Below, piece by piece: positions 6,304-43,687 of a stretch of DNA of 64,000 nucleotides. A program made the position numbers and the translations under genes. Positions within the stretch are counted from its first letter, which is position 1. Each line of letters starts with the position of its first letter. The notes beneath the pieces are model-generated. The model saw nothing but the letters and a program-made list of their open reading frames with translations, did not search any database and was not told the origin of the DNA. Source of the stretch: Chrysoperla carnea (Eukaryota > Arthropoda > Insecta > Neuroptera > Chrysopidae); contig NC_058339.1 in NCBI RefSeq assembly GCF_905475395.1, positions 47,749,172-47,813,171 on the forward strand. Reading direction: 5' to 3'.

Positions 6304-9300
6304 ATGGTTGCTTTAAACAAGGGTGAAATACCAAGAGAAGAAATTATTGTCAAAGGTCAAAATGTATCCTTCTTAACACAGGATTGTAGCTTGGGCTCAT
6401 TTATTTTAGACAAATTAAACAAATTTGAAGACAAAACAGCACAAGTATGTATTAAATTTGTTTCATAAACTTTATAATCTATTTAAAACAATTGTTCCGA
6501 AGCACTAAAACATTTTTTTTTTAAAGATATATTCTCTAACTGGGGAATCATACACTTTCCGTGAAATAAAAGACCGCAGCATTCGAGTAGCAAAACAATT
6601 ACGGGCCCATGAAGTTCGCCTTGGAGACGTTATATCAATTTGTTCTTCTAATAATCCAACTTCTGCTTTGGCATTACTAGCTGGTACATACGTTGGTGCA
6701 GCAGTCAGCCCATTGGATCCTAGTCTAAATAAATGTAAGGCTTCTTTCAGATATGTAAGATAAGAAGACGTACACAAAAAACTAAATTCCACACACTAAT
6801 CCATAAACTAAATTTATTTATTTTTTACTATTTTTTAGCTGATGTCAAACATTTAATGAATATTACTGATCCAAAAATTATCTTCACTGAAGAAGGTTGT
6901 CTTCAAATGATTGAAGAAGTTATCCAAGAATTGCATTTAACAACCGAAATAGTAGTCTTTGGTGACTCCGATAAACATACAACATTCTCACAATTTTTAA
7001 ATTCTTCAATCGATGATGCAAATGATTTCGAACCAGTCAATTTCACTGACCCATATGATCATATTGCTTATTTAATGTCTTCAAGTGGTACTACAGGATT
7101 ACCAAAGTGTGTGTCTATATCCCACGGAGCTATGATTTTTCAATTGCAACTAGTTATGTGAGTTATGCATTACCAGCATTTTTAGTAACAACCAAATTTA
7201 CGAATGAGTCAATTTATGTCATCATGATGACACTAAAGAAGTACCCAAGTGACTAAAATTGGATAAACTCTTTTCCGGGCTGATAACCTTGGCAAAGATC
7301 GTTAATATTCTTCTCTGTGACAATTTATTTTCGTTTACAATTTTTGTCAAAATCGAATGTTATAGAACAAATTTTTTATTTGGAGTAAACAGTAAATATT
7401 TGCCAACAGTTTTGGATTTTTTGATCTTATAATTATGTCTGTGAAGGGAGTTATTTTGCCTTACAAAAAAAAAAACAAAGGTTTTCGTTTTCTTAAATGT
7501 ATTGGCTTGTTATTCAAATATTTCAAGAGTAATCAACACTTCTAAAATTCAAAAATATGCCTTTTTAAACAGTTTTAAACTTATTAACAAAACATTTAAG
7601 CAAATATGTACCGTTGGCATCATAGACATGTTTTGATTAAAATTACACTACAATTTAACCTTTAATAAGCTGCTAAACATAATTGATCATCAAAAGCTTA
7701 TATCTTCTTCAAATTTCGTACATTACATCAGCAAAATTAACTCTTTCGTAGCGTTTTACTTTACCCTGAGTGTTATTAAAATTTCGGAAATCATAAACAA
7801 ATACTAATCAAAAATTTCAATGTAATAGGCTTGCTGGTTATCCATCAACTATGGTAATGTTAAATATGTCTTCCTTATTTTGGATAACGGGTGTATTCAT
7901 AACTTTACTTACAATCACTATTGGTACAATTCGTATTTTAACACCACCATTTGAGCCGTTACATATTTTTCAAACAATTGAAAAATATAAGGTCAGTTGG
8001 ATGGTACTTGGTGTAACATATTTTGCTCGAATGGTGACACATCCAAAAGTGGGCGATTACGACTTAAGGAGTCTTGATATGGTTGGCATAAGTGGTGCCA
8101 AAGCAAGCGAAAAACATTTAGCGGATGGAAAGATAGTATTTCCTAATTGTAGGTTAACTTCAAGTTATGGTATGACCGAAACAAGTGGAAATGTGTTTAA
8201 ATTGAATTATGGAGTACCAAGTGCTTTAGGAATGTTAGTACCTGGTATGGAATGTAAGGTAAGAATCAAGTTATATTATTTAAAATTGGTGTCTGCAGAT
8301 AGATACTGACTGTCTACTGTCTACTATAATTGTAAATAGTTTTTTACACAGAAAATCGAAAAAATAATTTTTGAATAACTATACGGAGTAATGTACTGTA
8401 TATTTGTCTGTCTATGTTTTCGATATATCTGTATACGTTTTCAAGCCGTGATGGTCCACCAAAAACGAAAGCAAACAATTCGCAATTATTACTAATAAGA
8501 AATTGAGGATATCTATGAAGCATAAAATAGAAAGGTACACTAAGAGGAATGTAATCCAAATTTGGAATATTTCTATTTTACTAATGGAAAATATCTATTA
8601 CAAACAAATTTTTTGAAATAGTAACTTTTATCAATAAATACAATATTTCATTTAATCGCTCAAGTAATCGACTTGGTTTTCAGACCTAAAATCCATATTC
8701 ATCACAACTCGTTTTAATATGTTGTTTTATGAAAGCCTTTATACATATTTTTTGTAGATTGTTGATACGGAAAGTCGTGTATCTTTGGGTCCAAACCAAA
8801 AGGGTGAAATATGTTTCAGAGGAAAAGCGTTATTTTCTGGATATTATAAAAATCCTATAGCAACATTTGACGCAGTAGACAACGATGGTTGGTTGCACAC
8901 AGGAGATCTTGGTTACTATGATGATAACGAATGTTTCTATGTTGAAGGTCGAATTAAAGAGCAATTTAAATGTAAAGGATGGCAGGTAATTAATTCATCA
9001 AGTCAAATTCACTTGACTTGATCCCTTTTATTTTGCAAAAGCATGAAGCGAACGTAGAATGACGGCTTGACTTTACAAAGAACCAAAATTACTTACATGC
9101 CCAAATGGACTGCCATTTTGAAGAGTTAATGAATTTCTGAAACCCTTTCTGATTGTAAATCTCAATCTTTAAAGCCAATTTATTCGTAGGCTTCGAATTT
9201 TGCTTAATTTAGAAAATTGGTAGTTACTGTGTTAATCAATTTTATTTATAGATTTATAATTTCCTATTTTTAGATTTCGCCCATAGAATTGGAATCAGTA

Positions 9301-9576
9301 TTACTAAAACATCCAGCAATCAAAGAAGCTGCTATAATAGGTGTGCCACATAAAGTTGACGTTGCAAGAGCCAGAGCATTTATTGTAAAACGACAAAACT
9401 CAAATGCAACAGAAGAAGATATACTTTCTTATATGAAAGAACATGTAAATCCAAATAAACAAATCACCGGTGGTATTATATTTGTTGAGTCTTTACCAAC
9501 TACACCGACTGGGAAAATTCAGAGAAGAGGTCTAGTGGAGCTAGCAAAACAGTATGCTACTGGTGATGAGGAATAA
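6304..9576 (+). CDS. Acyl-CoA synthetase / luciferin 4-monooxygenase-like, copy 1
   Basis: This ANL-superfamily enzyme should activate a carboxylic acid with ATP to an acyl-adenylate and then a CoA thioester. I join six exons: 6304-6444, 6527-6734, 6839-7157, 7829-8258, 8758-8985 and 9274-9576. All have GT/AG borders, and together they give 542 residues, close to the 545-550 usual for 4CL and luciferases. Seen in order: ATP loop SSSGTTGLPKC (about residue 197-207), SSLFWITG where 4CL has a FHIYG-like motif, SSYGMTE, GWLHTGDLGYY, GRIKEQFKCKGWQ, and the catalytic lysine in TPTGKIQRR near the C-terminus. The protein ends GDEE with no peroxisomal SKL signal. It is the most diverged copy (longest N-terminus; DPKIIFTEEGC where others have TPK or APK). 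Introns 3 and 4 (671 and 499 nt) hold nothing I recognise. The substrate is unknown. Confidence 0.93.
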
Positions 9577-10179
9577 AGACTTAACACTCCATTTTATTGA
9601 AATTAAATTAATTTATATCAAATTAGAATATTAAGATATTTTTTAAATTTAAGATATGTTTTATAATTACTAAAACATTGTATTATATTGTTTTATTTAA
9701 TTGTAATTCTCTAAGATAATGTTTATTTTAATTTATATTCATGTTAATGTAACATAAAACTGCAGTGATAAATTACAGGAAAAAGTATAAGAAAAGTACA
9801 TAGTTACTCTTTGTATTTTGTTCTTACTAAAATTAAATTACTATAAGAATTTACTTTATGGATATCAATGCCACGCTTAAAAAAATGTGAACTCTGACTT
9901 TTTTCCATTCGCACCTTTTCACTACTCTTTGGAAATTTACGAGAACTTTAAATGCGGATTTTCACACCACAGCGACGTTTAAATGACATGGTGGTCCAAA
10001 TAAAAATAAAAATAATTAATATACAACTCTCCGGTAGACTTTTACAGGAAAATTATTTCGACTGTATTTTAAGAACTATTTATATCTTACAGTTCCAGAG
10101 CGAATGTATTTTTTTTACACTCTCCCAAACACTCTTGTTGCTTACCTTGAGGTTTCCACATACTACCCTGAGGCTGTCC

Positions 10180-10300
10180 ACCGCCTACCCCAGATTGGAC
10201 CAATTGGCTCAATTGGACCCAAGACCCAACTGGCCTATGTTGCTCATTTACGAACTCAAACTCACTTTTTTCGGCCTGAGCACGTTATAAAAATTTCACT
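10180..10300 (+). repeat. Partial copy of the GACA-core dispersed repeat
   Basis: The segment GACCCAAGACCCAACTGGCC and the following TATGTTGCTCATTTACGAAC match the middle of the longer element at 11458-12060 and the copies near 39400 and 50770. It is preceded by degenerate CCAATTGG units like those at 31440-31620 and 32720-33110. Both flanking parts of the full element are missing. Confidence 0.6.
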
Positions 10301-11457
10301 AAACCAAAAATTTTTTCAATGTATTTACAACGTGTACAGGTGACCAATGCAAACCACTTTTTCGGTATCCAGAACCTACCCCGCAGACGGTTTTGCGGGA
10401 TCAAAAAATGGTATTTAAAATATTTTCCTGTGATGCAGGTTGCGTCATTTGCACTGGTGCTAAATGATTTTATTTTTTTAAACCCTAGTTTCCAGGAAGT
10501 ATTTGAGAATTATTTATCGAACAGAATTTTTGCAAATAAACTCTTTTTATATGCTGCTGAGCTGCAGTTTCTCTACGAGGGAATGCTACTATTGGAACAC
10601 TATTCGTCTTTGAAACGAGAATTACAAAGGATTTATATGCTTCAATTCAATGAAAGTTTTTGCACCATACCGTTCGAGAATAGAAAATATATCTTCGTTA
10701 ATAAGTACTTCTTCTTGTTGATTCTCAATAAAAAAACTTAAAGTTGCATCACGTAATTTTATTGCAAGTTTTCACAAAATGATTTTCACCCTTTCTATAA
10801 AAATCTAATGTTGTATCCCATCCTGTAATTGCATTAATAAACAGAAGATGCTCCTATTTAATTTTTGGAAAATGATTTAAGCCTGTTTTTATATTGTTTT
10901 TTCCTGTAAATATATTTATTTAATAATGACGTTTTTATAAATAATATAAATAAATAATAATCATTAAGAACAGATAATTCTATCACCAGGAATAGTAAAA
11001 ATATTATTTTCCTGAAAATGGATTTGTTATTTTTTTAACAATGTAAATAATTACTGAACCAGAAACAGCTCATTTTTCTATGAAACGACGAAAAAAATTT
11101 GTTTTACATAAATGTTATTATTATCACTTTCTTATAAATATTATCTATCTTCACTATATTGCAAAAAAAAAGCAGTTTTCTCCTGCTATTATTGTTTAAA
11201 TAACATAATTTATTATTAACAAAGATCGAGGAAGACATCGTTGATAAAAAAATGTAAATAATATCAATTGAGATATTCATAAATATTGCAAAAAAATAAT
11301 TTAAAAATAATTTTTCCCTTAAAAGCACTAAAAAATTATTTCCTGAAATTAGAATGTTTCTAATTTTGAGTAATATTAGAAAACACACATTTAGAAAAAA
11401 CAATCAAAATCGGAGCTGTTGCTGAGACTATAGAAGATTGGAAGATTTTACATCTAA

Positions 11458-12060
11458 ACAAGTGAAAGCAAACAATTGACTGAGTTAATTGTTGAAATAC
11501 CATGTATAGACAGTGTTGATGACGCAATTGTTTGTTTTTTGACGCGAAGTAAATAAAGAAAGATATCCACTCTTAAGTAACCACACACACTTAACTGATA
11601 TTCCCATATTAATACATACTATAAAATTTGCACCTAATAGCGTGTGGGTAAACGGTGATGTTTACAAGAAAATGTTAAAACAAAAGGTGTTTATTTTTTA
11701 TAAGGAACATTTTTGACATTTAAACTATTGTTCTATCTCTAACGGTTTACAAGATGGGTCCTACGAACCCAAGACCTAATTGACCTATGTTGCTCATTTA
11801 CGAACTCTACCTCACTTTTTACGTCCTAAGCACACTATAAAAATTTCAGCTTGATATCTCTTTTCGTTTTTGAGTAATCGTGATGACAGACGGACAGACG
11901 ACAGACGACAGACAGACAGACAGACAGACATGGACTAATTAGGTGATTTTATGAACACCTATACCATAATTTTTTTCGTAGCATCAATATTTTTAAGCGT
12001 TACTAAACTTGGGACTAAACTTAATATACTATGTATATTTCATATATACATGGTATAAAA
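11458..12060 (+). repeat. Dispersed repeat, longest copy, with GACA microsatellite core
   Basis: It starts AAGTGAAAGCAAACAATTGA and contains the small inverted repeat ACAATT..AATTGT. Next come CTATCTCTAACGGTTTACAA, a (GACA)n-type tract near 11884-11930, then ATTAGGTGATTTTATGAACA. It ends in CATATATACATGGTATAAAA. Related copies lie near 39211-39655, 50480-51020, 52705-52864, 61204-61275 and, inverted, 42581-42662. No coding capacity is seen. An internal microsatellite is reminiscent of non-autonomous Helitron-like (DINE-1 type) elements, but that class assignment is only a guess. Confidence 0.75.
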
Positions 12061-12363: not shown

Positions 12364-12371
12364 TATAAATA
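12364..12371 (+). promoter_or_regulatory. TATA box of synthetase copy 2
   Basis: TATAAATA is 115 bp before the ATG, with an Inr-like TCAAGCAATTG about 27 bp downstream. Just upstream, AGAGATTACA (12321-12330) and AAAACGTCA (12336-12344) are shared with copy 3 (18586-18604) in the same order, so they are candidate regulatory sites. Confidence 0.7.
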
Positions 12372-12478
12372 AAACTCGATTGTGTTCAAATCAAGCAATT
12401 GACTAAAAATCAATCAATAATCAAATTTAATTGTTTGTTAATTTGATTTAAATCAGAACTAAGTTAATCAATACAAAA

Positions 12479-14533
12479 ATGGTTGTTTTATCAACGGAAC
12501 AAAAAACGGAAGATATTATTCTCAGAGGGCAGAATTTCCCAGTGAAACAAGATTGTAGTTTGGGAAAATTCATTTTGGATAAACTTACAAAACATGGAGA
12601 CAAAATATCTCAAGTAAGTATTCTTTAAAACACAATTTTGTAATTCAAACTTTAAGAAATAAATATATTATCGAATCCTTACAAAAAAAATTTAAATTTT
12701 TAGATATACTCTTTAACTGGAGAATCATACACACACTTCGATATTAAAAAGCGTAGTATTCAAGTAGCAAAAGAATTACGTGGCCATGGAGTTGGATTAG
12801 GTGATGTTATTTCAATTTGCTCTGCAAATACTCCTACTTCCGCTTTGCCATTATTAGCTGGAACATATATTGGCGCAGCTATAAGTCCATTAGATCCCTC
12901 ACTAAATAAATGTAAGTGCAAGTTGCTACAAAAAAGAAATTAAATACTAGTTTCATTATTATAATTTTGTTAATTGTTTTCTTAGTTGATATCAAACATT
13001 TGATGAACATAACTACTCCAAAAATTATCTTCACCGAAGAAAGTTGTCTTAAAATTATTGAGGAAGTTATCCAAGAATTGAGTTTATCAACGGAAATAGT
13101 GGTTTTTGGTGAATCCAACAAACATGCAACCTTCTCACAATTTTTAACTCCATCAATTGATGAAGATGATGATTTTGAACCAGTTAACTTCACAAATCCA
13201 CAAGATCATATTGCATTTTTGATGTCTTCAAGTGGTACAACAGGTCTGCCAAAATGTGTATCTCTTTCTCATGCCGCTATACTCCTCCAATTACAGTTAG
13301 CTTTGTAAGTACTTCTCATATTTTAAAATTCGTTTTATAATCTGCAGAGTACTTAATTATTTATTCATCTACAGAGTTGCTCAATATCCAAATGATGTAA
13401 CAGTGTTGAACATGTCCTCATTATTTTGGATCACCGGCGTATTAGTAACTTTAATTGCAATTGCAATTGGTGGAACTCGAATTTTAACACCACCATTTGA
13501 ACCTGTACATACTTTGGAGACTATTGAAAAGTATAAGGTCCCATGGATTATTGTTGGAGTAACATTTTTTGCTCGAATGGTAACACATCCAAAAGCATCT
13601 GAATTTGATTTAAGTTGTGTTCAAGTAATGGGTATAAGTGGAGGCAAAGCAAGTGATCAACATTTAGTTGATGGCAAAAAAGTATTCCCTCGTGCTTTAT
13701 TAACATCAAGTTATGGTTTAACCGAAACATCTGGAAATGTCTTCAAACTACATTATGGAAAGCCAACTGCTGTTGGGCATTTAGTTCCTGGTGTCGAGGC
13801 TAAGGTTGGTATTAAATTAGCTGAAGAGTTACATTTGTATACATTTGATTAATATGAGTTGTATACATTTGTTAACATTAACAATAATATTTTTGAAAAC
13901 TAAGTTATTTTTTAATGTGTAGGTTCTTGATGTTGAAAGTGGCGCATCCCTAGGTCCAAATAAAAAAGGTGAACTATGCTTTAGAGGAAAATTATTGTTC
14001 TCTGGATATTACAAGAATGAAAAAGCAACCAATGAAGCAATTGATAAAGATGGTTGGTTACACACAGGAGATCTTGGTTACTACGATGATGAAGAATGCT
14101 TTTATGTTGACGGACGCATTAAAGAACAATTCAAATGTAAAGGATGGCAGGTAATTGTCCTTTTTAATAAAATTAAGTTAACGTCAAATATCGTAGTTGG
14201 TTTTATTTATCAAACATTTTCTATTTCTAGATATCACCTTTAGAATTGGAATCAGTATTGTTAGAACATCCAGCAATCAAAGAAGCTGCTGTATTAGGAG
14301 TACCACACAAAGTTGACGTTGCACGACCAAAGGCATTTATTGTAAGACGACAAAACTCAGAGGCAACAGTAGAAGAAATACATTCATACATGAAAGAACG
14401 CATGAATCCAAATAAGCAAATTACCGGCGGTATTATATTTGTTGAGTCTTTACCAACTACACCAACTGGAAAAATTCAAAGAAGAGCTTTAGTAGAATTA
14501 GCAAAACAATATTTAGCGAGTAATGATGAATAA
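12479..14533 (+). CDS. Acyl-CoA synthetase / luciferin 4-monooxygenase-like, copy 2
   Basis: Six exons (12479-12613, 12704-12911, 12986-13304, 13375-13804, 13923-14150, 14231-14533) give 540 residues, and all introns are short (70-118 nt). The ATG is in a good context (ACAAAAATGG). Motifs: SSSGTTGLPKC at about 195-205, SSLFWITG with Trp239, SYGLTE at 333-338, TGD at 412-414, GRIKEQFKCKGWQ at 428-440 and catalytic Lys521 in TPTGKIQRR. Lys435 corresponds to firefly Lys443. The tail is LASNDE without a peroxisome signal. The intron 4 donor is GTTGGT, weaker than the GTAAGN used elsewhere. It is closest to copy 3, sharing the start MVVLSTEQK, the RSIQVAKELRGHG block and the promoter sites. This is the most compact gene of the array. 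Confidence 0.94.
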
Positions 14534-18619: not shown

Positions 18620-18627
18620 TATAAATA
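18620..18627 (+). promoter_or_regulatory. TATA box of synthetase copy 3
   Basis: TATAAATA followed by AAACTGAT lies 137 bp before the ATG, with TCAATCGAGTG about 30 bp downstream as a possible initiator. The upstream AGAGATTACA and AAAACGTCA at 18586-18604 are shared with copy 2. Confidence 0.7.
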
Positions 18628-18756
18628 AAACTGATTTTTGTGTGTTTGAATCAATCGAGTGACGTGAAAGTCAATCATTATTAAGTTTAGTGATTATTAA
18701 TTATTTTAATTATTTATTAATTTCATTTAAATTAATACAAATTTAATTAATAAAAA

Positions 18757-23894: not shown

Positions 23895-23902
23895 TATCAA
23901 TA
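23895..23902 (+). promoter_or_regulatory. Altered TATA box of synthetase copy 4 (TATCAATA)
   Basis: The position and flanks (GTATCAATAAAACT against GTATAAATAAAACT) match the TATA boxes of the sister genes, 124 bp before the ATG, but the fourth base is C. Upstream GATTAGAAAA (23873-23882) is shared with copies 5 (33736-33745) and 6 (40001-40010). Basal transcription of this copy may be weaker or differently started. Confidence 0.6.
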
Positions 23903-24018
23903 AAACTTTGATCCTTGAAAATCGATTGATTAGAAATTAATACCTGATTAAATGAAAGTTAGTTGTTCTAGTTTATTCAAGACAATAGTGTATTTAGCAT
24001 AGCTCAGCATCATAAAAA

Positions 24019-27000: not shown

Positions 27001-27852
27001 TTTATTTTTTACATAGATTGTAAATGTTGAAAATGGTACCTCACTGGGTCCAAATAAAGAAGGTGAAATATGCTTTAGAGGGAAATTCATATTCTCTGGA
27101 TATTACAAAAATGAAAAGGCAACCAATGAAGCAGTTGATAAAGATGGTTGGTTACATACAGGAGATCTTGGGTATTACGATGAAGAAGAAAATTTTTATG
27201 TTCAGGGGCGAATAAAAGAGCATTTTAAATGTAAAGGATGGCAGGTAATTGAGCAATTTAAATTCATTTAACTAGAAAATATCCAACCCTATTAAGGTAT
27301 AAAAGCAGATCGTGACAAACTTATACTTTATTTTATAATACTTAAAATAACACAAAGTTTAATATTGTCTTTTTGACTTTTTGAAGAAATTTGTTTAAAA
27401 TTCCATCATCAGTACAAAACCAATTGCTCCATTTCCTTTAGAGTAAAAGCTCCATTTCCTTCGGAGGAAATTCGTTAAAATGACAGCATTATTGTTTTTA
27501 TCTACTTTTCAGTCAATATTATTATACCATTAAATAATTTTTTTTTTTTTAGATATCACCTCCAGAATTAGAAGCAGTATTATGCGAACATCCAGCAATA
27601 AAAGAAGCTGCCGTTATAAGTGTACCTCATGCAGTTGATGTTGCGAGGCCTTTCGCATTTATTGTTAAACAACAAAATTTAGAAGTTACAATAGATGAGA
27701 TTAACATGTATATGAAAGATCGTGTGAATTCACATAAACAATTAACCGGCGGCATTGTATTTATTGACAATTTGCCAATAACACCATCTGGAAAAATTCG
27801 AAAAAGAGATTTAATTGAGTTAGCAAAACAGTATTCAACAAGTAATGAATAA
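24019..27852 (+). CDS. Acyl-CoA synthetase / luciferin 4-monooxygenase-like, copy 4
   Basis: Exons 24019-24147, 24212-24419, 24495-24810, 25568-25997, 27017-27244 and 27553-27852 give 536 residues. Core motifs are intact: SSSGTTGLPKC, STLFWLSG, SGYGLTE, HTGDLGYY, and the catalytic Lys in TPSGKIRKR. Differences: FYVQGRIKEHF where the others have D or E before GR and EQF or ELF after it, and AAVISVPH where the others have AAVIG or AAVLG. It shares with copy 5 a distinct C-terminal subdomain (CEHPAIKEAAV, VNSHKQLTGG, IELAKQYST) and a one-codon-shorter exon 3. Introns 3 and 4 are long (757 and 1019 nt). Intron 4 contains an inverted-repeat element and a duplicated copy of its own 3' splice site. 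The altered TATA box, decoy acceptor and substitutions make this the copy most likely to be weakly expressed, but it is not a pseudogene by sequence. Confidence 0.92.
26450..26900. repeat. Inverted-repeat element in intron 4 of copy 4
   Basis: The left arm (AGTGTTCATGGCTATTTTTA, then CAGGCAAGCCTATA) and the right arm (TATAGGCTTGCCTGAA, then AAAATATCCATGAACACTTT) are imperfect reverse complements about 130 bp long, with a nested ACCAAT(C/T) inverted repeat in the middle. It is the same family as 1630-1990. It accounts for much of the expansion of this intron. Confidence 0.75.
26884..27026 (+). repeat. 96-bp duplication of the exon 5 splice-acceptor region
   Basis: CGTCTC(T/G)TATACT, an AT stretch, then TTTTTTACATAG|ATTGTA occurs twice, 96 bp apart. 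The acceptor at 27016 leads into the true exon 5. The upstream one at 26920 leads into ATTGTAGATGAA and then an in-frame stop after eight codons, so using it would truncate the enzyme after exon 4. Confidence 0.85.
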
Positions 27853-27954
27853 AGACTGATTGTCGAATATAAAATCAGGGGCTGACTTTTGACTTAGTTC
27901 CACATTAAATCAAATTTAACGTTCTTTAAACAAGAGTACTGCATTATTCTTTAA

Positions 27955-28975: not shown

Positions 28976-31439
28976 TAAATAAATTTCCTACACAAAATTG
29001 ATTGATTTACTCCCTTTTAATCCATTGCTTTTTCGGTCTATATTTTTGGTCTAATACCAAACATTTTGTATTTGGTCTAATACCTACATTTACTAATCCT
29101 CCATAGATTTTATAATTATCTATATGTAGGTAAGTATTTTGTATAATTAAAAAAATCTTATAATATATAAATAGTTCAAACATTGGAATTCAAGCATATA
29201 CCTTTATACTTTTAAAATTATCTAAATATTTTCACTTTAATACGGCCGCTGAGCCGGTTTTCGTGGCCAATTGAGATCAACGTAAACGACCCATACATTT
29301 CGGCGTATTTTTTCTGTTGAATACGAAAAGAAAGGTTGTTTTTTCGAAATATGATGCAGTAATTTTTTAAAGGCAATTTCATTGTTTATAACGCCACCAA
29401 TCCCGCTAAGCAATAATTTTTTTAACTGTGAAAACGGATATTTTCTCTAAAATTAATCCATAGAAGAAATTATCCAATAATATTAATTAGAATAAAATTT
29501 ATTCTAAAATTTCGAAAGGAAACTGTCGAAGCCCTTTTTTAGCCCTTTGTTAGACATCGCTTAAATCATCATTTTCACTTATATCTCGGATTCTAATGAA
29601 AATAGGAATGTTTACGGTATCTCATTTTAAAGCTAAAAGTCTAAACATATAATTTAAGTTTCATGCAATACCCAAATATTGTTTAAAAGGAAGTTACACC
29701 GGTTAAAAATACACCGAAATTACACCGGAAAAAATTACGTGTAATTTGTTTGAACGTTTTTAAGTTTAGAAAAAATAAAATACCAATAATATGAACATGT
29801 CATAATATCGTCCTATAAAAGACAAATATTTTCCAACTTAACTTTTCCGAGGGATGTGATCATTTGAAGGTAGACGCCGGTATTCGAATGAGCGGCCGGA
29901 GTACTTGTTTTTTGATTATTAATAAATATTTTATATTTACAATTATAATAATAAAATATAAATACAATATTATCTCTGCCTAACAAAAAAATAGTAGGGT
30001 AAGATGTGGTACCTAGAGAACAATGTACTTTGAATTATTCTATAGTTTCTCGACAGATATTTCTATTTACTGAACGGCATTTGTATTAAAAAAATAAGGG
30101 TATATTATCATATTGAAGGTAGGCTAAAGACTGGTTGTAAATGTGATTTTGTTTTCGAATAAACTAAAAATGATTTTTTTTTTTGCAATAAAAGTAAAAA
30201 AATTGTTTTTTTTGAGTATCATTTACAAGCTCAGCTTAAATCATTGGCTATCGTTGTGTAAGATCTTTTATCATATCCCAGTTTTAAATTTTCCACTTTA
30301 AATTTTGAAGAGGTCTCAAATACGCAAAGTGATGTACCTTGAATCTAATAACATAATGTACCATTGATACATGGTAATATTTATCTCCTGAATTTTAAAT
30401 TTTATTATTGTTATTTTATGGGTTACCAAGCTTATTTAAACATAGTATAGGTAAATGAGGAAAAGAAGTTTAATTCACTCCAAATCTCTACAAATACCAC
30501 TTAAAGCTGTTGCTGGAGAGTTAGAGTAGTGGATGCCTGTTTCAATCACATGCATGTTGAAAAGAACGCTTTCAAGTACGATCAATGGCGGTAATTCATG
30601 GATCAACCATCACGTATCATGATTCACAAGTTTTAATCCATAGTTATTGTATAGTGTTGATTAATAACAGAGACATTTTCCAGTTTGATATTTTAAAAAA
30701 TGGCTTTTAAAAACACATAAATGTAAATTTCAATTCTAGGTACTACAACTTCTCCTACTTAATACAGGTAAACATGTTTTTATCTATTTAGAATAAAAAC
30801 ATAATTTTTACAAGTCATGAATGAGGATGAAAATTTGATTCAAGGACAGAGACGGACTGTTTGGTATTTATATTTCACCGTTTATACATAAAATAATGTT
30901 TACTATTAATACTTCTGCTACTAAACGATGTGTTCAAATTAACGGATTAGTAATTATATGAGAAAAATTTTTATATGTTAATATTTTTATATAACAATAT
31001 TCGTATATACTTATTAGAGAGGGAGATCAAATCTTTAAAGAAACAAAGTGGTTCTTATAAAAATGCCAACAATTTTTTCCGAAAATTTTTTTTGTGATGG
31101 CTGTAGGTCTAAATAAAATCGTTTTCGGACCCATGTTTATATGTAAATTTTATAATTTGTTGATGCTAAGGTGATTCCTATACAGCCAGTGTTTCGATAA
31201 AAGCTATTTTTACAACTTCTCTACGTCAACACCAAAAATACAAATTATTTTTTTAAACCCCAAGAAAATTTTGTGTAAAATAGCAATCTGTCCATAATCA
31301 AAACCAATAGGATCATAAACAAATAGTTTATGAAACGATATTGAACCAAGACTCTTATCAAGACAAATTATTTTATAACAAAGGGAAATTTCGCACAGTG
31401 GTACATCACCTTATGCAACTCCGTATCCCGACTAGAAAT

Positions 31440-31620
31440 TTTCACGTGCTCCCATTTGGGACCCAGCTTGGTTGCCCAATTGGGACCCCAAATTGGGCTG
31501 TAACGCAGAAACTTATTTGGGGCCCGGTGGGGCTATCCCAATTGGTTCCCAATTGGGCAGTCCCTATAGGTTCCCGAATGTGCAAGCCCTATGGATTCCC
31601 AATCGAATAATCCCGGTCTG
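31440..31620. repeat. CCCAATTGGGAC-type short repeat array
   Basis: Palindromic units such as TTGGGACCC, CCAATTGGG and GGTTCCCAATTGGG recur every 15-25 bp. Frames running through them give artificial WxNWxP-type proteins on both strands, so the small open frames here are repeat shadows and not genes. Confidence 0.7.
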
Positions 31621-31781
31621 TTCCCGCTTAATTTACCTTATTGTAAATCATTTGCCCCTTGTTAATCAATACAATCATGATGTAGCCTATAGCTTCAAAT
31701 TAAAAATAAACTGGAAATTACCAAGCAAATTTTTTTATTTATAAATTTATAAAAATACAATAGATTCAGTCAATAGAATGA

Positions 31782-32111
31782 TCATTTTTTTAAACGAAGA
31801 AGACGATGGCCATCCCAATCTCGAGCACCTTGTATCACTGCTGTCATTGCCTTCAAAATTTCTTTATCGTCTAGTGGGTTTTCGGGACTGGAAGCTAGTT
31901 TTTTAATAAAGACATCTATAATAATTAAAAAAAAAAATTATTAATGTAAGAACTATTTTTTTTAATAATTACAATATAACTTGTGATCGAAATTTTTACC
32001 TTGTATACTTGAATAAAAACTTCTGGTCCGTAGACGTCCAAGTTCACATTTTATACATAACCTCAATCTCCAATTGACATTTTCAATTACACTCAAAAGT
32101 TCGTTACACAT
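31782..32111 (-). CDS. Small two-exon gene, 81-residue protein of unknown function
   Basis: On the minus strand, exon 1 runs from ATG at 32111 to 32000 and exon 2 from 31915 to the stop at 31782. They are joined across an 84-nt intron with a GTAAAA donor and ATTATAG acceptor in phase 1. An in-frame TGA lies two codons before the ATG, and no other frame continues through exon 2. The product starts MCNELLSVIENVNWRL, has a basic middle (CELGRLRTRSFYSSIQ) and ends in an acidic-then-basic tail (DWDGHRLLRLKK). Composition is clearly more protein-like and GC-richer than the surroundings. A GCGCCATCTGTTG motif (32302-32314), seen near some arthropod promoters, lies about 190 bp upstream. I do not recognise the family; a small mitochondrial or complex-assembly protein is only a guess. 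Confidence 0.6.
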
Positions 32112-32719
32112 ATGTCAAAATAATATAATTCAATTAAACGTAAATGCACTTAAAAAATTTTATGATATAGTATGATGCTGAATTTTTATAAATTAAAATA
32201 ACAAAAAAAAACTATAAAAAATCACTTATTTTCGATTCATAGGTACTCGATCGTTTGTTAATCACAGTGTTTTTATTATGACAAATAAAAAACTTCTCGT
32301 AGCGCCATCTGTTGAAATGTTTTAAATAAATAAAACGCGGAAAATTCAAAAATGAAGAACTGATACTTTTGATTCAAATAGAAGGGAAATATCAATAACA
32401 GAATAATATTAAGAGAAAAAAATAGATTATGTAAAAAACGAAAAGTTTATAAATACTCAAAGTACAGAGTTAAAAGTGAAGTAAAGCGTTTTGAATTAAA
32501 ACTTTTTTAGGGAAATTATTTTTTTCTAAATTTATAACTATTTACTTACTATAAAAAAATAACTTAAAAATTAATTGAAAAATTATGATTGTTTTTAATA
32601 AAGTAGGAAATTTTTTAAATCAATTAACTGTACTAAGATTAAGAACATATATATTTGCTTTATTCAAAGCAATCAAATTTTTCAAAATCCGGTAAAAATA
32701 GAGTAAAGATTATTTAATT

Positions 32720-33110
32720 TTTACATCGGGCTATCCCAACGTGTTCCCAACCAGGTCCCACTCAAACAATTAAACCGTTGTGTTTATCATTTAATTTAAT
32801 TTGGGCTTTCCCAATAGGTTACCAAATAGGCCCCAGTTGGGAAAAACTATTTAAAATCGCCTATTTTTACATTGGGCTATCCCAAAAGGTTCCCAATTGG
32901 ATCCCAATTGGGATAGACCTTTTTTAATTTAATTTGGGCTTTCCCAATAAGTTCCCAAATAGGCCCCAGTTGGGAAAAACTATTATAAAATCGCCTATTT
33001 TTACATTGGGCTATCCCAAAAGGTTCCCAATCGGATCCCAATTGGGATAGACCTATTGGGACATGCCCCAACAAATCCCAAGCGGGCCCCAATATAAGTA
33101 CTGGGACAAT
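32720..33110. repeat. Tandem array with 133-bp period (TTGGGCTTTCCCAATA units)
   Basis: A block beginning TTTGGGCTTTCCCAATA and ending near ATCGCCTATTTTTACATTGG recurs with a period of about 133 bp (starts near 32801 and 32934), followed by a partial third copy and flanked by an older divergent unit. It is built from the same GGTTCCCAATTGGGA motif as 31440-31620. The 91-codon minus-strand frame at 32877-33152 is a shadow of it. Confidence 0.75.
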
Positions 33111-33758
33111 TTCTAGTCGGGATATTGATAGGGTATACCGCAATGATTGCAAAAGTTTAGGTAGACAAATTTTTAGAACTTTTACTCACAGCTGCCGCAA
33201 TAAAAGATCAGAAATCGAGTAAAAATTGTCACAATTCAATTCAATTCTATCATAAAAGTTTCTAACGAATAGACATTTTTTCTAAAACTTTTTTTAAATG
33301 CCGGTAAAAATGTGAATAGACTTTGTGTCCAAAGTTTAATTCTATGCCACAAAGACTCGTATTCACTTTATAGGTTTTTAATTTTTTTGATAAAACTGTT
33401 GTTTCCCGTTTTTTGCTCTATTTTAGACCTATTACCGTAATCCAAATTTGCCGATTTTATAGATATTATTCGGTTTTAATTTTATTGTTTTGAAAACTTT
33501 TTACAAGATGCTTGTTGTACTATAATTAAATAATTTTTTCAATGTCTCTGACCGTGATTTGCCGCCTGAAGGTATTTTCGTATGCCTGAGATAAAATCAT
33601 AAACAACTCACATTTAACAGGTTATTTATAAATTTACTGTTTTTTATTTTGTATTATTTATAAAACTTAATCATTTCACATACTGGCCCTGAAGAGCGCA
33701 GAACAAAAATTTATCGGTTGAATAAACAATACTGAGATTAGAAAAATTCTTAATACGA

Positions 33759-33766
33759 TATAAATA
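33759..33766 (+). promoter_or_regulatory. TATA box of synthetase copy 5
   Basis: TATAAATA is 130 bp before the ATG. The upstream GATTAGAAAA at 33736-33745 is shared in position with copies 4 and 6. Confidence 0.68.
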
Positions 33767-33888
33767 AAAAAGCCGGTTTTGAAAACGATTAATTAGTTAA
33801 TTATTTACTGATTAGATGTACCGTATTTATTTTTTAAGTTCAATTAAATCATCAATCATATTTTAAAAATTATACAAAATCATCCATA

Positions 33889-36800
33889 ATGGCATCAACG
33901 GAGGACAAAAAAGAAGAAATTATTGTGAAAGGGCTGGATTTTACCTTGTCACAAAATTTTAGCATAGGAACATTAATTTTGGATAAACTTACAAAACATG
34001 GAGACAAAATATCTCAAGTAAGTACCTACTTACTTTCAAATAAAATAAATATAAAAATAATAAAATTAGATTAAGAAAGTTCATTCTTTATTAAGAATTA
34101 AATTTTTTGCATTAGATCTATTCTTTAACTGGGGAATCATACACACATCTTGACGTAAAAACTCGAAGTATACGAGTTGCTAAAGAATTACGTGCTCATG
34201 GAATTGGCTTAGGTGATGTGATATCTATTTGCTCTACTAATACTCCAAATTCTGCTTTACCATTACTAGCTGGAATGTACTTAGGGGCGGTTATTAATCC
34301 ACTTGATCCAACTTTAAATAAATGTAAGAGCTGCTGTGGCAGATCAAATAAGAATTTAATTAATTACCAAATTTATAATTTATTTTATCAGCTGATATTA
34401 AACATCTGATGGGCATTACGACTCCAAAAATTATCTTCACGGAGGAAAGTTGTCTTACAATGATTGAAGAAGTTATTGAAGAATTGCATTTATCAACTGA
34501 AATAGTAGTTTTTGGTGATTCTAATAAACATGCAACCTTTTCACAATTTTTATCTGAATCAATTAATGAAAATGATTTTGAACCAGTTAATTTCACAAAT
34601 CCACAAGATCATCTTGCATTTTTGATGTCTTCCAGTGGTACTACAGGTTTACCAAAATGTGTTGCTCTTTCTCATGCAGCAATTCTATACCAACTAGAAC
34701 TAGCTTTGTAAGTAAAATGTTTCTGATTATTTAACTAAAGGTATGATTCCTATGCTGCGACTGACGCAAGTGTCTGGCAGATATAACACTTGAAATAAAT
34801 TTTAATTTAATTTGATAAATACAAATGAAAAGCATATATATTTTACTTTTCCGGAGTCCGTAAAAGAAAAGGCAAACTATTCGAGAATGTTTCCAAATAA
34901 AAAATTATAATATATAGCAATCTTCCACCCAAGTACTAACTGTGCCCACTGCAGCTTAACTTCGTGGTATGCATACCACGTGATGTGCATGTAGCTTCGC
35001 AGATGAAGATCCAGCCATGCTCACCACCAAACTAGAATTTTTAACCCCGCTAAAAAACTACTATAATAAAATCGATCAACGCAGTTAAAAGCCTAAAAGC
35101 ACAACTAATTAATTTTATTGAAACTAATGACAAAAGATTAATTATTATTGCACACATGCTAATACGTCATTTTAAATATTTCAGAATTGCTTTTCCATCA
35201 AGTGTATCGATATTAAATATGTCTTCGTTATATTGGTTATCCGGCGTCATGGTAACATTATTGACAATCGCAGCCGGTGGAATTCGACTTCTCACACCTC
35301 CATTTGAGCCCGAACATACTTTACAAACAATTGAAAAGTATAAGATCCCATTTATAATTGTTGGTGTAACATTCTTTGCGGGAACAGTTTCACATCCAAA
35401 AGCATGTGATTTCGATTTAAACTGTGTTAAAATGATTTGTATTCTTGGTGGCAAAGCAAGTGAAAAACATATTGATAAAGGCAAAAAAGTATTTCCAAGC
35501 GCTTTAATATCTTCAGGTTATGGTACAACTGAAACATGCGGACCGGTCTTTAAGTGGGATCATACAAAACCAAGTGGTGTTGGACATTTACTTCCTGGTT
35601 TCGAAGCTAAGGTTAAGAAAAAAAAATTTATTTTTTAGAATTTTATGATTAAAAATACACTGTGTCCATCCAAGAAATTGAAAAGAAACAAAAGAAGTAA
35701 AAATCATTAATTTAGGCTATTGATTATGCACTATAGAAAGGAACTAAGACGCTCACAGAAATCGTTCAATGAAATATAAAAGAAGAAAAAACCGCGGAGT
35801 GCAAATAAATTAAAGAGTGGAAATTGAAGAAAAGGGGTGAAAATTCACCCCTTAAAAAGCAATGTAGTGGCACCATTCTTCCAAACATTTGTTGTAATGT
35901 CATATATTCCTAAATAATAATTGCAAAATACCTTTTTCGTTGAGTTAAACAATAATTGTTTCAATAAAGAGCAAACGAAAACAATATTTGTACAAGGAAA
36001 TGAATTGCAAAAAAAAGTCAGGTTGAAATGGCTATATAGCCATATCTCGGTCAATTTTTAACCATATAGCATATTTCAGCATAGCATTTTTAAGGAAATT
36101 TTATTTACTTTCTTTCGTCTGCAACAATGCCTTTACTCATCTCTGCCCGAAAAAAGATACAGATGAAATGCAAAAAACTACAAACAATCGAAATTTTGGG
36201 TGTTTTTCCTATCTGTTTTGAATGTTTATATTAATTTTTGAAAAATACCATTATTCCGGTGAAAAATTTCATTATCTACAAAAAGTTTTATATAAAATTT
36301 ATTGATCTTTGTTTACGAAATATTTGGAAAACCCCAGATGCACCAAAAAGAGGTGCAATTTCACCCCTATTTTCAATTTCCACCCCATAATTCAATATCA
36401 CTTCGCAGTTTTTCCTTCTTTAATAACATATTGAACGATTCCTGCATTAAAAATTGTGAACGTCTTAGTTCCTTATTGTCCTGTTCTGTAAGACATTATC
36501 TATAGATCATTTTTAAAGTCTTTCTTCAACAAATCTCTGTTTGAAAGAATTTAATAATATTTATTAAAAGATGCCTGTAACTTTTAATCGTAAAAGTATA
36601 TTTTACATAGATTGTAGATGTTGAAAGTGGCGCCTCACTGGGTCCAAACAAAAAAGGCGAAATGTGTTTTAGAGGGAAATTCATATTCTCTGGCTATTAC
36701 AAAAATGAAAAAGCAACTAATGAAGCAATTGATAAAGATGGTTGGTTACACACAGGAGATCTTGGTTACTACGATGAAGAGGAATGTTTTTATGTCGATG

Positions 36801-37410
36801 GTCGAATAAAAGAGCTCTTTAAATGTAAAGGATGGCAGGTAATAGATCATTTTCAATTAGTCGTAGCTGATCGTTACGCATCCGCTTCCCGATCATAACA
36901 TAACTAGAGTAACATTTTCGTCATTTTCATTATTATAACTTAATTTTCGCTCTATAATAATCAAATATCCAATAATTTAAAGGAAAAATTTAAGGCATTG
37001 AATTCATTTCAACCTTAATGCTCTTGCTACAAAGAAATAGTAAAAAAAGTTGGCTTGGCCCTTCGCACATTATTTTATATAATAATTGATTAATTGTCTA
37101 ATTTCAGATATCACCTCTAGAATTAGAAGCAGTGTTATGCGAACATCCAGCAATAAAAGAAGCTGCCGTAATAGGTGTACCTCATGCAGTTGATGTCGCG
37201 AGGCCTTTCGCATTTATTGTTAAACAACAAAATTTAGAAATTACAAAAGATGAGATTAATTTATATATGAAAGATCGTGTGAATTCGCATAAACAACTTA
37301 CTGGAGGTATTACGTTTCTTGACAGTTTACCAATTACACCAACTGGAAAAATTCGAAAAAGAGATTTAATTGAGCTAGCAAAACAGTATTCAACGAGTGA
37401 AGATGAATAA
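33889..37410 (+). CDS. Acyl-CoA synthetase / luciferin 4-monooxygenase-like, copy 5
   Basis: Exons 33889-34017, 34116-34323, 34392-34707, 35185-35611, 36611-36838 and 37108-37410 give 536 residues. Motifs: SSSGTTGLPKC, SSLYWLSG (Trp at the pocket-His place), SGYGTTE (Thr where the others have Leu or Met), HTGDLGYY, GRIKELFKCKGWQ, and the catalytic Lys in TPTGKIRKR. Exon 4 is one codon shorter than in all other copies, just before the SILNMSS segment. The C-terminal subdomain (CEHPAIKEAAV, VNSHKQLTGG, IELAKQYST) pairs it with copy 4. Intron 3 holds a 5S rRNA-like fragment and intron 4 a 737-bp inverted-repeat element. The tail SEDE lacks a peroxisome signal. Confidence 0.93.
34923..34990 (-). 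pseudogene. 5S rRNA-derived fragment
   Basis: CCACCCAAGTACTAACTGTG, GCCC and GCAGCTTAACTTCG reproduce, in order, the reverse complement of the central 5S rRNA region that carries the internal pol III promoter. The ends of 5S are not present and several conserved bases differ. It is either a decayed 5S pseudogene or the head of a 5S-derived (SINE3-like) element, lying antisense inside intron 3 of copy 5. Confidence 0.6.
35738..36474. mobile_element. 737-bp inverted-repeat element in intron 4 of copy 5
   Basis: The ends AAGGAACTAAGACG (35738-35751) and CGTCTTAGTTCCTT (36461-36474) are exact reverse complements. The inverted repeat continues imperfectly for over 100 bp, through ATCGTTCAAT, GGAAATTGAA and GGGGTGAAA. 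The interior is non-coding. It looks like a non-autonomous DNA transposon with long terminal inverted repeats; the target duplication is unclear. Confidence 0.8.
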
Positions 37411-39210: not shown

Positions 39211-39655
39211 ATAGTCACATATATAATTGATATTCCCATATAATACATACAATACAATTTGCGCTCTCACGGGTTAACAGTGATGTTTACGAAAAAATGT
39301 TTCAAACAAATTTTTTTATAAGGAACATTTTTTACATTTAAACTTTTGTTCTATCTCTAACGGTTTACAAGATGGATCCTACGGACCCAAGACCCAATTG
39401 ACCTATGTTGCTCATTTACGAATTCGACCTCACTTTTTGCGTCCTAAGCACGCTATCTCTTTTCGTTTTTGAATAATCGTGATGACAGACGGACATACAG
39501 GCGACAGACAGACAAACAACCGGAAATGGGCTAATTAGGTGATTTTATGAACAACTATACCAAAATTTGGTTCATAGTATCAATATTTTTAAGCGTTACA
39601 AACTTGAGACTAAACTTAGTATAACTTAGTATATTTCATATACCTGGTATAAAAA
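39211..39655 (+). repeat. GACA-core dispersed repeat, 5'-shortened copy
   Basis: It matches 11458-12060 from the TGATATTCCCATATAATACA segment through CTATCTCTAACGGTTTACAA, GATGACAGACGGACA and ATTAGGTGATTTTATGAACA to the ATACCTGGTATAAAAA end. The GACA tract is shorter, and the first 100 bp or so are missing or diverged. Confidence 0.75.
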
Positions 39656-40031: not shown

Positions 40032-40039
40032 TATAAATA
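40032..40039 (+). promoter_or_regulatory. TATA box of synthetase copy 6
   Basis: TATAAATA is 132 bp before the ATG, with TCAATTGATG about 31 bp downstream as a possible initiator and GATTAGAAAA at 40001-40010 upstream, shared with copies 4 and 5. Confidence 0.7.
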
Positions 40040-40163
40040 AAAGTGTTTTTTATTTACAATAATCAATTGATGATTTAAACTCAGTTACAATTTTACTAAT
40101 TAGATTAGTTTTTTTTTAAGATTATTATAAATTAACACCTTAATTATTACAAAAACATCTAAA

Positions 40164-42338
40164 ATGGTCATATTATCAACGGAACAAAAAACGGAAGAAG
40201 TCATTATTAAAGGACCCAACGATCCATTGGTCCAAGATTGTAGTTTAGGAGCATTTATTCTGTATAAATTAACACAACATGCAGACAAAATATCACAAGT
40301 ATGTAATTACGCATTAATTTATTAGTCTATCAGACGGACCCACATATTCGATATGTAGCGAATATAGATGAAATGTTCGCCACAATCCGTTAAATTGCGA
40401 ATGGTATAAATAAGTTGTTTGCTAAATACCATAGTCTCTAGTTCAATGTGCCAATGGATTCCCAGTTGAAATAAATCCCAAAACAACCAAAATTAATCAG
40501 AAATTATGTTTCGATTTAAAATATTGAATATGTTTAAATAATATCAAATCGAAATTATTGGATTTCCAACTCATTCCGATTGATTTCTAATTCATTTGTA
40601 TTGGAAATCTACTAGAGTTTTTCCTAGAGAGGTGCTCAACATTTGGTAATTATCAAGCGAAAGTTTATAAATGTTCGTCTATTTAGCAAACATTAGTTAT
40701 ATAGGATTCGCTAAATAGCCAAAAATATTTGAAGTAACTTTAATATTGTAGAACATTTTAGAAGCATATAGATAAAATCAATTGTTCCCAAATATTTATG
40801 GACTTTTTATTTTTAGATATACTCTTTAACTGGAGAATCATACAAACATATTGATATAAAAACTCGAAGTATTCGAGTTGCTAAGGAATTAAGTTCTCGG
40901 GGCGTTGGTTTAGGTGATGTTGTATCAATTTGCTCTGCTAATACTCCATCTTCTGCCTTACCATTACTAGCTGCAATGTATATAGGTGCACCAATAAGTC
41001 CATTGGATCCAAGTTTAAATAAGTGTAAGTTTTTATTATTACATATAAAAAGATTACCTAAATCAATATTTTTTAGTGAATTTTTAATTTGCTTATTAGT
41101 TGATATAAAACATTTGATGAACATCACGGCTCCAAAAATTATATTTACTGAAGAAAGTTGCCTTAAAAATATTGAAGAAGTTGTCGATGAATTACATTTG
41201 TCAACGGAAATAGTGGTTTTTGGTGAATCCGATAAGCATATACCCTTCTCACAATTTTTATCCGAATCAATTGATATTGATGATTTTGAGCCAGTTAACT
41301 TCCCAAATCCACAAGATCATATTGCATTACTGATGTCTTCCAGTGGTACTACCGGCTTACCGAAATGTGTTGTACTTTCTCACGCAGCAATTCTTTTCCA
41401 ACTTCAAATAGCTGTGTAAGTACTTTTTAATACCTTAAATGATACAAGGTAAATTTTTCACCCATATACATATGAGTAAAAAACTTGTGCTAAAAAATAT
41501 CGGAAACCCAGTTTTCGATTCAATCATATTTAAATCCTATTTGAAGAATTAATCTTTCAGAATTATTTACTCATTTGGCCTCTCAATGTTTCAGACTAGC
41601 TGGACTTCCACCAGGCGTGTCAGTCTTAAATATGTCTTCATTATTCTGGATAACTGGTATATTAGTTACATTATTTGCGATTGCACTTGGTGCGGTTCGC
41701 ATTATAACACCGCCCTTCGAACCGGAACATACTTTGAAAACAATTGAAAAATATAAAATTACATGGATGATTCTTGGTGTAACATTCTTTTCACGTATGG
41801 TTACATATCCAAAAGCAAGTGATTTTGATTTAAGCTGCGCTCAAATGGTTTGTATTAGTGGCGCTAAAGCAAGTGAACAACATTTAGCTGAAGGCAGAAA
41901 AGTTTTCCCACGTGCTTTAATAACCTCCAGTTATGGTTTAACTGAAACATCTGGCGCAATTTTCAAAATAGATTATTCAAAACCCGCATCTTTAGGTCGT
42001 TTATTTCCTGGGCTAGAGTGTAAAGTTAGTATTAAAATAGATTACCATTCAAGTTACTACTGTAAAGGTACATAAAAGGTTTGAACTGTTCTAGCAAAAT
42101 TGTAAGGCCACATTTACAGGCAAATTCTAGGAAACGTTTATTTAGTATTGCTAAATTTTTTTTAAAGATCTGACAGACTTAACGCTTAACGCTTTAGTTA
42201 GAGCTGCAGAGAGCTTTGCCTAAGGTGTAGAATTCTCTGCTCGTTTGACAGATCTAGTTATAGAAAAAATTTAGCAGTACTTGTAATAGGAACGTACATG
42301 TAACCGTGGCCTTTGAATCTAGCGGGATCAATTCAAAT

Positions 42339-42391
<53 letters not shown>

Positions 42392-43687
42392 ATTTTGACG
42401 TATCGTATATCATTTTCTCCAAAAAACAATTTGGGTTGGAAAATCAAAAGAATAAAAGATTAATTAAGGATTAGTAATTGGTTCCGGCAACATTTTTGGA
42501 TTTTAATATTTTTGATTTCAAATTTGTGTGCGAGCACCCAGAAAGCCTTTAAAGTAACATAGCTTTCTATTATTTTCTGATTTTATACCATGTTTATATG
42601 AAATAAATCAAGGTATACAAGTTTAGTCTCAATTTTGTAACGCTTAAAAATATTGATGCTACTATTTATTTATTGTTACCATTAGTTACATGTTCTAAAA
42701 TAATGATTACATCCTCCTCTACATTTCATATTTAAATCCGTAGAGGTCCGCTCAGTATTTTGGAGTCACGAATAGCTGCAGGAAAAATTTCAAAAAATTC
42801 TCTTTGATTTCAGCGCCCTCTAAATTTGGTTGAAGAATATTTCTATTCTGACCCAAAAAAAAAAAAAGTAAAATAAAAAGTTGTTAGGCGCTACAATAAC
42901 TACAGCCTTTCAAATTTTTGATATACCACCTTGTTAAAATAGCAAAATGTATATGCCATATAATAATATTTTTCTTAATACTAAATACCTAAATCCACAG
43001 GTGAAGACAATAAATTGATTTTCTTATTTTTTATAAACAGGTGGTTGATATCGAAAATGGTGCATCTCTAGGGCCTGACAAAAAAGGTGAATTCTGTTTC
43101 AAAGGAAGACCATTATTCTCTGGATATTATAAAAATGAAAAAGCAACTAACGAAGCAATTGATAAAGACGGCTGGTTACACACTGGAGATCTTGGTTACT
43201 ATGATGATGAGGAATGTTTTTATATCGAAGGACGAATTAAGGAACAATTTAAATGTAAAGGATGGCAGGTAATTGATAATTTTTCTCGAATTATTGAAAT
43301 TTAGTTGCATTATTTATTATGTAAATATGCAACTAAAATAACACATTTGTAGTAAAATTGCCTAAAAATAGTATTTTGTAATTTCAGATATCACCCGTGG
43401 AATTGGAGTCAGTATTGCTAGAACATCCAGCAATCAAAGAAGCTGCTGTAATAGGAGTGCCACATAAAGTTGATGTGGCAAGACCTAAAGCTTTCATTGT
43501 AAAACGACAAAACTCAGAGGCAACAGTACAAGAAATACATTCATACATGAAAGAACGCATGAATCCAAATAAACAAATCACCGGTGGTATTGTATTTGTT
43601 GAGTCTTTACCAACAACACCAACAGGAAAAATCCAAAAAAGAGCTTTAGTGGAACTAGCAAAGCAGTATTTAACGGATGATGAATAA
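40164..43687 (+). CDS. Acyl-CoA synthetase / luciferin 4-monooxygenase-like, copy 6
   Basis: Exons 40164-40298, 40817-41024, 41100-41415, 41595-42024, 43041-43268 and 43388-43687 give 538 residues. Motifs: SSSGTTGLPKC, SSLFWITG, SSYGLTE, HTGDLGYY, GRIKEQFKCKGWQ, and the catalytic Lys in TPTGKIQKR; the tail is LTDDE. Exon 3 has the one-codon deletion of copies 4 and 5, while exon 6 (RQNSEATV, HSYMKERMNPNKQITGG) reads like copies 2 and 3, so it is intermediate or a conversion mosaic. The intron 4 donor is GTTAGT after AAA, a weaker site, and the 1016-nt intron holds a foldback element, a long (AT) run and an inverted fragment of the GACA-core repeat. It is the last gene of the array. Confidence 0.93.
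42104..42313. mobile_element. 210-bp foldback/MITE-like element
   Basis: AAGGCCAC (42104-42111) and GTGGCCTT (42306-42313) close an inverted repeat that continues through TTACA, TGCTAAATTTTTT and AGATCTG(T/A)CA. The centre contains GCAGAGAGC and its complement. There is no coding capacity; it lies in intron 4 of copy 6. Confidence 0.65.
42345..42386. repeat. (AT)21 microsatellite
   Basis: A pure AT dinucleotide run of 42 bp inside intron 4 of copy 6. It is probably length-polymorphic. Confidence 0.97.
42581..42662 (-). repeat. Inverted fragment of the GACA-core dispersed repeat
   Basis: The reverse complement reads AGCATCAATATTTTTAAGCG, then AGACTAAACTTGTATACCTT and CATGGTATAAAA, which is the 3' end of the element at 11458-12060. 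It lies in intron 4 of copy 6. Confidence 0.75.

Follow-up and report, generated by a model that had tools for sequence, protein, structure and literature searches.

In fireflies and click beetles, paralogues of luciferase have been described in clusters whose members may carry or lack a type 1 peroxisomal targeting signal (PTS1) (PMC6191289, PMC10798137, PMC11090084). The same papers report clusters of acyl-CoA synthetase (ACS) and PACS genes around luciferase in Photinus, Aquatica, Ignelater and Nipponoluciola (LLp and LLa), with an expansion that was independent in each lineage (PMC6191289, PMC11090084, PMC10798137). Here we analysed a window of 64,000 nt from Chrysoperla carnea (contig NC_058339.1, positions 47,749,172 to 47,813,171), in which six acyl-CoA synthetase genes, G1 to G6, stand in tandem. 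The original prediction for this window, made from its letters alone, had drawn a parallel with tandem expansions in insects such as beetles; these are indeed in print, and the kind of system is already known. On the sequence evidence, it is likely that the array encodes six functional acyl-CoA synthetases of the ANL superfamily, of the luciferase/CG6178/4-coumarate-CoA-ligase type, maintained as an old array.

Seven exons are reported for firefly luciferases and for most other members of the clusters (PMC6191289). Drosophila CG6178 is a fatty acyl-CoA synthetase (PMC10327219) and is described as carrying a PTS1 (PMC11090084). Acsx is an ACS group of worms and flies whose substrates are given as uncharacterised, and knock-down of Drosophila Acsx4/Acsx5 led to higher triglycerides (PMC11830124). 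The candidate luciferases of the fungus gnat Arachnocampa are described as resembling fly proteins more closely than those of fireflies, with another residue in place of the lysine that serves the light-producing step.

Six genes in one orientation

The window has a G+C content of 29% and holds six full-length acyl-CoA synthetase genes, arranged head to tail on the plus strand from 6304 to 43687, outer coordinates that match the original prediction exactly. Each was recognised from its gene model and by Pfam. G1 (542 aa) spans 6304-9576, with exons at 6304-6444, 6527-6734, 6839-7157, 7829-8258, 8758-8985 and 9274-9576. G2 (540 aa) spans 12479-14533 (exons 12479-12613, 12704-12911, 12986-13304, 13375-13804, 13923-14150 and 14231-14533) and is followed by G3 (539 aa) at 18757-21742 (18757-18891, 19821-20028, 20111-20429, 20504-20933, 21133-21360 and 21443-21742). 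The exons of G4 (536 aa, 24019-27852) lie at 24019-24147, 24212-24419, 24495-24810, 25568-25997, 27017-27244 and 27553-27852, and those of G5 (536 aa, 33889-37410) at 33889-34017, 34116-34323, 34392-34707, 35185-35611, 36611-36838 and 37108-37410. The last gene, G6 (538 aa), covers 40164-43687 with exons at 40164-40298, 40817-41024, 41100-41415, 41595-42024, 43041-43268 and 43388-43687.

The spliced model of G1 was built by eye from the sequence, and the G1 exons then served as queries to locate the best open, same-phase exons bounded by GT and AG in the other five genes. All six genes have six coding exons in phases 0,0,1,2,0,0 and an open frame of 536-542 aa free of internal stops. Exon 2 (208 nt) and exon 5 (228 nt) are of constant length throughout; exon 1 measures 129-141 nt, exon 3 either 316 or 319 nt, exon 6 either 300 or 303 nt, and exon 4 is 430 nt in five copies and 427 nt in G5. 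All 30 introns are bounded by GT and AG, which indicates consistency rather than independent proof, since both ends were imposed by the search. Around every start codon, positions -3 and +4 are occupied by A and G, respectively, and the reading frame is closed by a stop codon 6-54 nt ahead of the ATG. The predicted set of six intact copies in one orientation, with shared exon count and phases and near-equal exon lengths, was thus borne out by the gene models. No seventh copy was found outside the modelled exons when the six proteins were searched against the 64-kb window with tblastn (E<=10); the sole significant match outside the array exons was a minus-strand acetyl-CoA-synthetase exon, the remaining matches having E values of 2.0-9.7. 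These include a 43-aa frame on the minus strand of G4 intron 3 (24999-25127) that weakly matches residues ~178-219 of G1-G5 (E 2.0-9.7); it is probably a chance match and possibly a decayed fragment.

Both PF00501 and PF13193 were found in all six proteins. The top match of G2 among sequences in the Protein Data Bank (PDB) was Drosophila CG6178 (PDB 7kyd, E 2.5e-88), followed by an ancestral luciferase, beetle luciferases, and then a luciferase-like ligase and 4-coumarate-CoA ligases (best 60 of 215 matches); no animal ACSM entry was named among these best 60. G2 is 34% identical to CG6178 (517-aa part sequence) and 32% to the ancestral luciferase. The acyl-CoA synthetase/luciferase-like family assignment of the original prediction agrees with these domains and matches. 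Peptide patterns of the six copies yielded no confirmed close relatives in the bacterial and viral contig collections.

Pairwise protein identity among the copies is 66.0-89.6%. In an unrooted tree of eight rows, the six copies fell on one side and CG6178 and the ancestral luciferase on the other (100/100), a weak separation given only two outside rows. Neighbouring genes form sister pairs, G2-G3 (97/98) and G4-G5 (95/100), while the placement of G1 and G6 was without resolution. Such a topology, with sister genes side by side on the chromosome, is typical of local tandem duplication.

Active-site residues and the A4 tryptophan

Residues were mapped onto Luciola cruciata luciferase through a HMMER alignment and are given in firefly numbers, which we take to be two lower; with this offset R218, H245, K443, S347 and K529 fall in place. 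Unchanged in all six copies are the P-loop SSGTTGLPK, K206, T343, E344, D422, R437, K443 and K529, and G341 is also unchanged in the array. Six substitutions are common to all copies: G207C, R218Q, H245W, S347G, I351K and Y447W. The A4 motif reads F/Y-W-I/L-T/S-G throughout, with Trp in place of the active-site His in both the HMMER and MAFFT alignments. A background sample, the best 80 of 582 confirmed bacterial and archaeal relatives aligned with MAFFT, has Gly at 207 in 78 of 79 sequences and His at 245 in 74 of 75. The shared unusual active-site residues noted at the outset are therefore real.

In a scan without preselected positions, we took the 54 columns that hold one residue in at least 85% of the background and are identical in CG6178 and the ancestral luciferase. 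All six copies keep 39 of these, all six change ten (in G2 numbers N109D, E116D, G205C, P236S/T, H239W, V282G, P283V, I434F, G470V and E471A), and five are mixed. It follows from the ten shared changes that the ancestor of the array already had a remodelled active site. Such changes, among them those of the A4 His and of the Gly that follows the P-loop Lys, could point to catalytically dead or non-CoA paralogues kept as binding or regulatory proteins, and for His207 of a CoA ligase a published table gives an activity lowered 500-fold (PMC8388817). We nevertheless regard this as very unlikely, since the 39 kept positions are joined by the A10 Lys, Asp 422 and Arg 437, and the A4 replacement is aromatic, as the A4 definition printed in the same source (any aromatic residue) allows (PMC8388817).

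With beetle luciferases among the top PDB matches, the proteins might be taken for luciferases, or recent relatives of the luciferases, of a luminous insect; we hold this to be extremely improbable. Luminous enzymes are described with a TSA, CSA or CCA loop (PMC7522259), which we placed at positions 346-348. None of the six copies has it, the array reading SGN, SGN, TGG, SGV, CGP and SGA (G1-G6), and R218, H245 and S347 are replaced by Q, W and G in every copy. The C-termini of G1-G6 are DEE, NDE, DDE, SNE, EDE and DDE, none of them SKL-like (PTS1) as judged by eye, and the eight-row tree, weak as it is, also sets the copies apart. A luciferase function was rejected on the loop, the three replacements and the absent peroxisomal C-terminus. 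The proteins are probably cytosolic, because their C-terminal ends are acidic and lack a peroxisomal signal; they are probably also non-luminescent, with a Trp-gated pocket, as far as their sequences indicate.

The A4 position is given as Trp in acetyl-CoA synthetases and as His in 4-coumarate-CoA ligases (4CL), long- and medium-chain synthetases and luciferases (PMC3098103). A second source gives Trp in 100% of a group of medium-chain acyl-CoA synthetases (MACS) and describes Trp265 of the human enzyme as narrowing the pantetheine channel (PMC6122825). In the acetyl-CoA synthetase gene that neighbours the array, the motif is GWITGHSY, and its Trp shares an alignment column with the array Trp. 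Since the array Trp is aromatic, as in acetyl-CoA synthetases, acyl-CoA formation should remain possible through a narrower channel. Retention of G341 presumably leaves the acyl pocket not closed to acetate size, an assumption we carry over from work on acetyl-CoA synthetases.

We infer catalysis, gating, cytosolic location and any substrate differences from the sequences as follows. Each enzyme would bind ATP and a carboxylic acid and form an acyl-adenylate with the C-terminal lysine (K529); the C-terminal domain would then rotate, CoA would attack and the acyl-CoA would be released. By analogy with human Trp265, the bulky A4 Trp should gate the pantetheine channel by making it narrower, and should also change the shape of the acyl pocket. 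If the copies differ in substrate, the A5-loop residue at position 348 would be the likeliest determinant. As for the substrate, the Trp gate together with the open pocket (G341 kept) leads us to guess at a medium-chain or aromatic acid.

Age, selection and divergence of the copies

Codon analyses used a GY94-type model with F3x4 frequencies on 535 of 542 codon columns, gapped columns being removed, and a fixed tree in which G6 was joined to G2-G3, a placement that the eight-row tree leaves open. The one-ratio dN/dS across the six copies was 0.145. Terminal-branch omega was 0.182, 0.068, 0.105, 0.169, 0.210 and 0.109 for G1 to G6, and omega=1 was rejected on each of these branches (2ΔlnL 86.6, 51.2, 69.5, 39.1, 26.3 and 110.0, respectively; one degree of freedom). 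Each of the six copies is under purifying selection. The original prediction had assumed selection on the copies and named a dN/dS near 1 as its refutation; such a ratio is rejected for all six.

Synonymous divergence (NG86 dS) was 0.42 for G2-G3, 0.46 for G4-G5 and 0.67-0.94 for the other 13 pairs. Intron similarity between copies amounted to five matches of 18-34 nt (E<=1e-3), none of them between G2 and G3; the flanks of these two genes do keep some similarity, 66% in an upstream stretch of 311 nt and 67% in a downstream stretch of 235 nt. With introns near-unalignable and dS high, the likeness of the exons is due to selection and not to youth of the copies, and an old tandem array is the likely state of affairs. 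Recent assembly duplication and pseudogenes were ruled out by the dS range of 0.42-0.94, the near-unalignable introns and the lack of stops. As a separate observation, exon 6 has the lowest dS in six of the 15 pairs, including both sister pairs, and repeat identities also hinted at a similar last exon; weak gene conversion might explain this. Runs of silent sites, tested in all 15 pairs, gave no significant sign of it, the best p value (0.014; G3-G5, exon 5) being not significant for 15 tests.

Site models gave no sign of positive selection, although six paralogues alone give such codon tests limited power: M2a was no better than M1a, and M8 did not improve on M7 (2ΔlnL 1.8, p=0.40). Nor was the pocket significantly faster. 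For a set of 22 positions, a list we recall from firefly luciferase work, mean omega was 0.21, compared with 0.17 for the other 513 sites (p=0.13), and 13 of 22 pocket sites are variable against 252 of 518 elsewhere. The absence of positive selection and of a significantly faster pocket would suit six enzymes with a single common reaction and identical acid substrates, retained to serve quantity, tissue or stage, as would the TATA motif common to five of the six genes (below). We regard this dosage or expression set as quite possible, if somewhat doubtful, since the copies are old by their dS and their proteins differ by 10-34%. The site with the highest mean omega of all 535 (0.52), G2 residue 342, equalled after rounding by residue 388, is also position 348 in the pocket loop. 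It takes five states across G1-G6 (N, N, G, V, P and A). This was noticed post hoc and is a lead. In the FruitFire work, this loop of CG6178 was modified so as to change how the enzyme uses luciferin (PMC10327219).

The original prediction had also suggested that the enzyme set is lineage-specific and, more tentatively, that it handles a specialised fatty or aromatic acid; such an acid might be dietary or defensive. A derived active site common to all six copies, repeated duplication with retention of the copies, and divergence at positions 346 and 348 would all fit such a set. The same tests (p=0.40 and p=0.13) did not bear the role out, and with no sign of positive selection a "specialised enzyme set" therefore stays a matter of inference. 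The related CG6178 is moreover a fatty acyl-CoA synthetase (PMC10327219) and the related Acsx4/Acsx5 affect triglyceride storage (PMC11830124). On this evidence the proposal appears unlikely. Because the closest solved structure, CG6178, is a fatty acyl-CoA synthetase, ordinary lipid metabolism is equally open. A further idea starts from mammals, where ACSM-type enzymes take part in acid conjugation. That the array expanded in tandem to activate small, medium or aromatic acids, as an insect counterpart of this system, seems to us more unlikely still.

The TATA motif TATAAATAAAA occurs six times on the plus strand of the window, five of these at 88-137 nt before an ATG of the array; 0.67 occurrences per strand are expected under a first-order Markov model, and the minus strand holds three. 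As a candidate core promoter it lies at 6216-6226 (G1, 88 nt before the ATG), 12364-12374 (G2, 115 nt), 18620-18630 (G3, 137 nt), 33759-33769 (G5, 130 nt) and 40032-40042 (G6, 132 nt), all on the plus strand. G4 has a one-mismatch form, TATCAATAAAA, at the matching place (23895-23905, plus strand, 124 nt before the ATG). This suggests that the copies may keep a similar core promoter.

Several points weigh against six functional, Trp-gated synthetases. The two sources on the A4 position disagree on the medium-chain residue, one printing His (PMC3098103) and the other Trp (PMC6122825). MACS-style gating is an analogy only, because the proteins are overall similar to His-type enzymes. The Cys that replaces Gly after the P-loop Lys in all six could lower activity. 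A further replacement common to all six, by Lys near A4/A5, falls at position 317 in one alignment and at the next Pro in another. Internal branch B had an omega of 0.49 in the free-ratio fit, on a length of 0.03 that is too short to interpret. Finally, the Trp gate could mark an insect-wide subfamily and not a special function. Drosophila Acsx proteins presumably bear the same Trp motif.

The surrounding window and described systems

The neighbouring acetyl-CoA synthetase gene lies at 50013-59625 on the minus strand, adjoining the array; it has motif stretches in the expected order, including SGKI, and two of its stretches matched PF00501 and PF13193. Dispersed repeats at 10217-12006, 39216-39602, 50475-51007 and 52700-52853, made of pieces of 68-154 nt up to 94% alike, are common to intergenic places of the array and to the acetyl-CoA synthetase region, and look like a short transposable element. 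The reading frames at 31311-33185, between G4 and G5, are repetitive and have a high content of Pro, Gly and Trp; this stretch includes, at 32790-33057, two tandem units of 134 nt that match imperfectly (77%). Upstream of the array, 2629-3002 is a 187-nt tandem duplication, 99% identical. A 71-nt repeat pair, 87% alike, at 44873-44943 and 62432-62502 starts with TATACAGGGTGGGTC and TATACAGTGTGGGTC, respectively; we take these starts to resemble DNA transposon ends. No tRNAs or Rfam families were found in the window, and a Pfam search of ten chosen from the 63 stop-to-stop stretches of at least 80 aa gave one match (E 0.075), below the family cut-off. Literature searches found nothing direct on expansion or detoxification roles, and five Trp-motif strings gave only an unrelated match in literature text.

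Tandemly copied acyl-CoA synthetases of insects gave rise to luciferase, and intact arrays such as this one show pockets that evolution has already tried. The Trp/Cys signature offers a simple sequence marker for enzymes of unassigned substrate, and an influence of the Trp gate on chain length or on the entry of aromatic acids, if there is one, would show in a single acid panel.

Among described systems, the human MACS with Trp265 and the acetyl-CoA synthetases resemble the array in their A4 Trp, whereas the array sequences overall stand on the luciferase/CG6178/4CL side; the array Trp therefore looks like convergence. CG6178 shares with the array the equivalents of K206, D422, R437, K443 and K529. 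However, its A4 residue is His and its P-loop Lys is followed by Gly, both missing from the array; it also has a Leu346 protrusion where all six copies have Gly, and a PTS1 by the published description (PMC11090084), which none of the six proteins has. The Arachnocampa candidates have lost the light-step lysine, presumably K443, which the array copies possess. The beetle clusters, as far as they are described, are like the array in that paralogues of the same family stand side by side, many without a PTS1, and most of their genes differ from it in having seven exons where the array genes have six coding exons.

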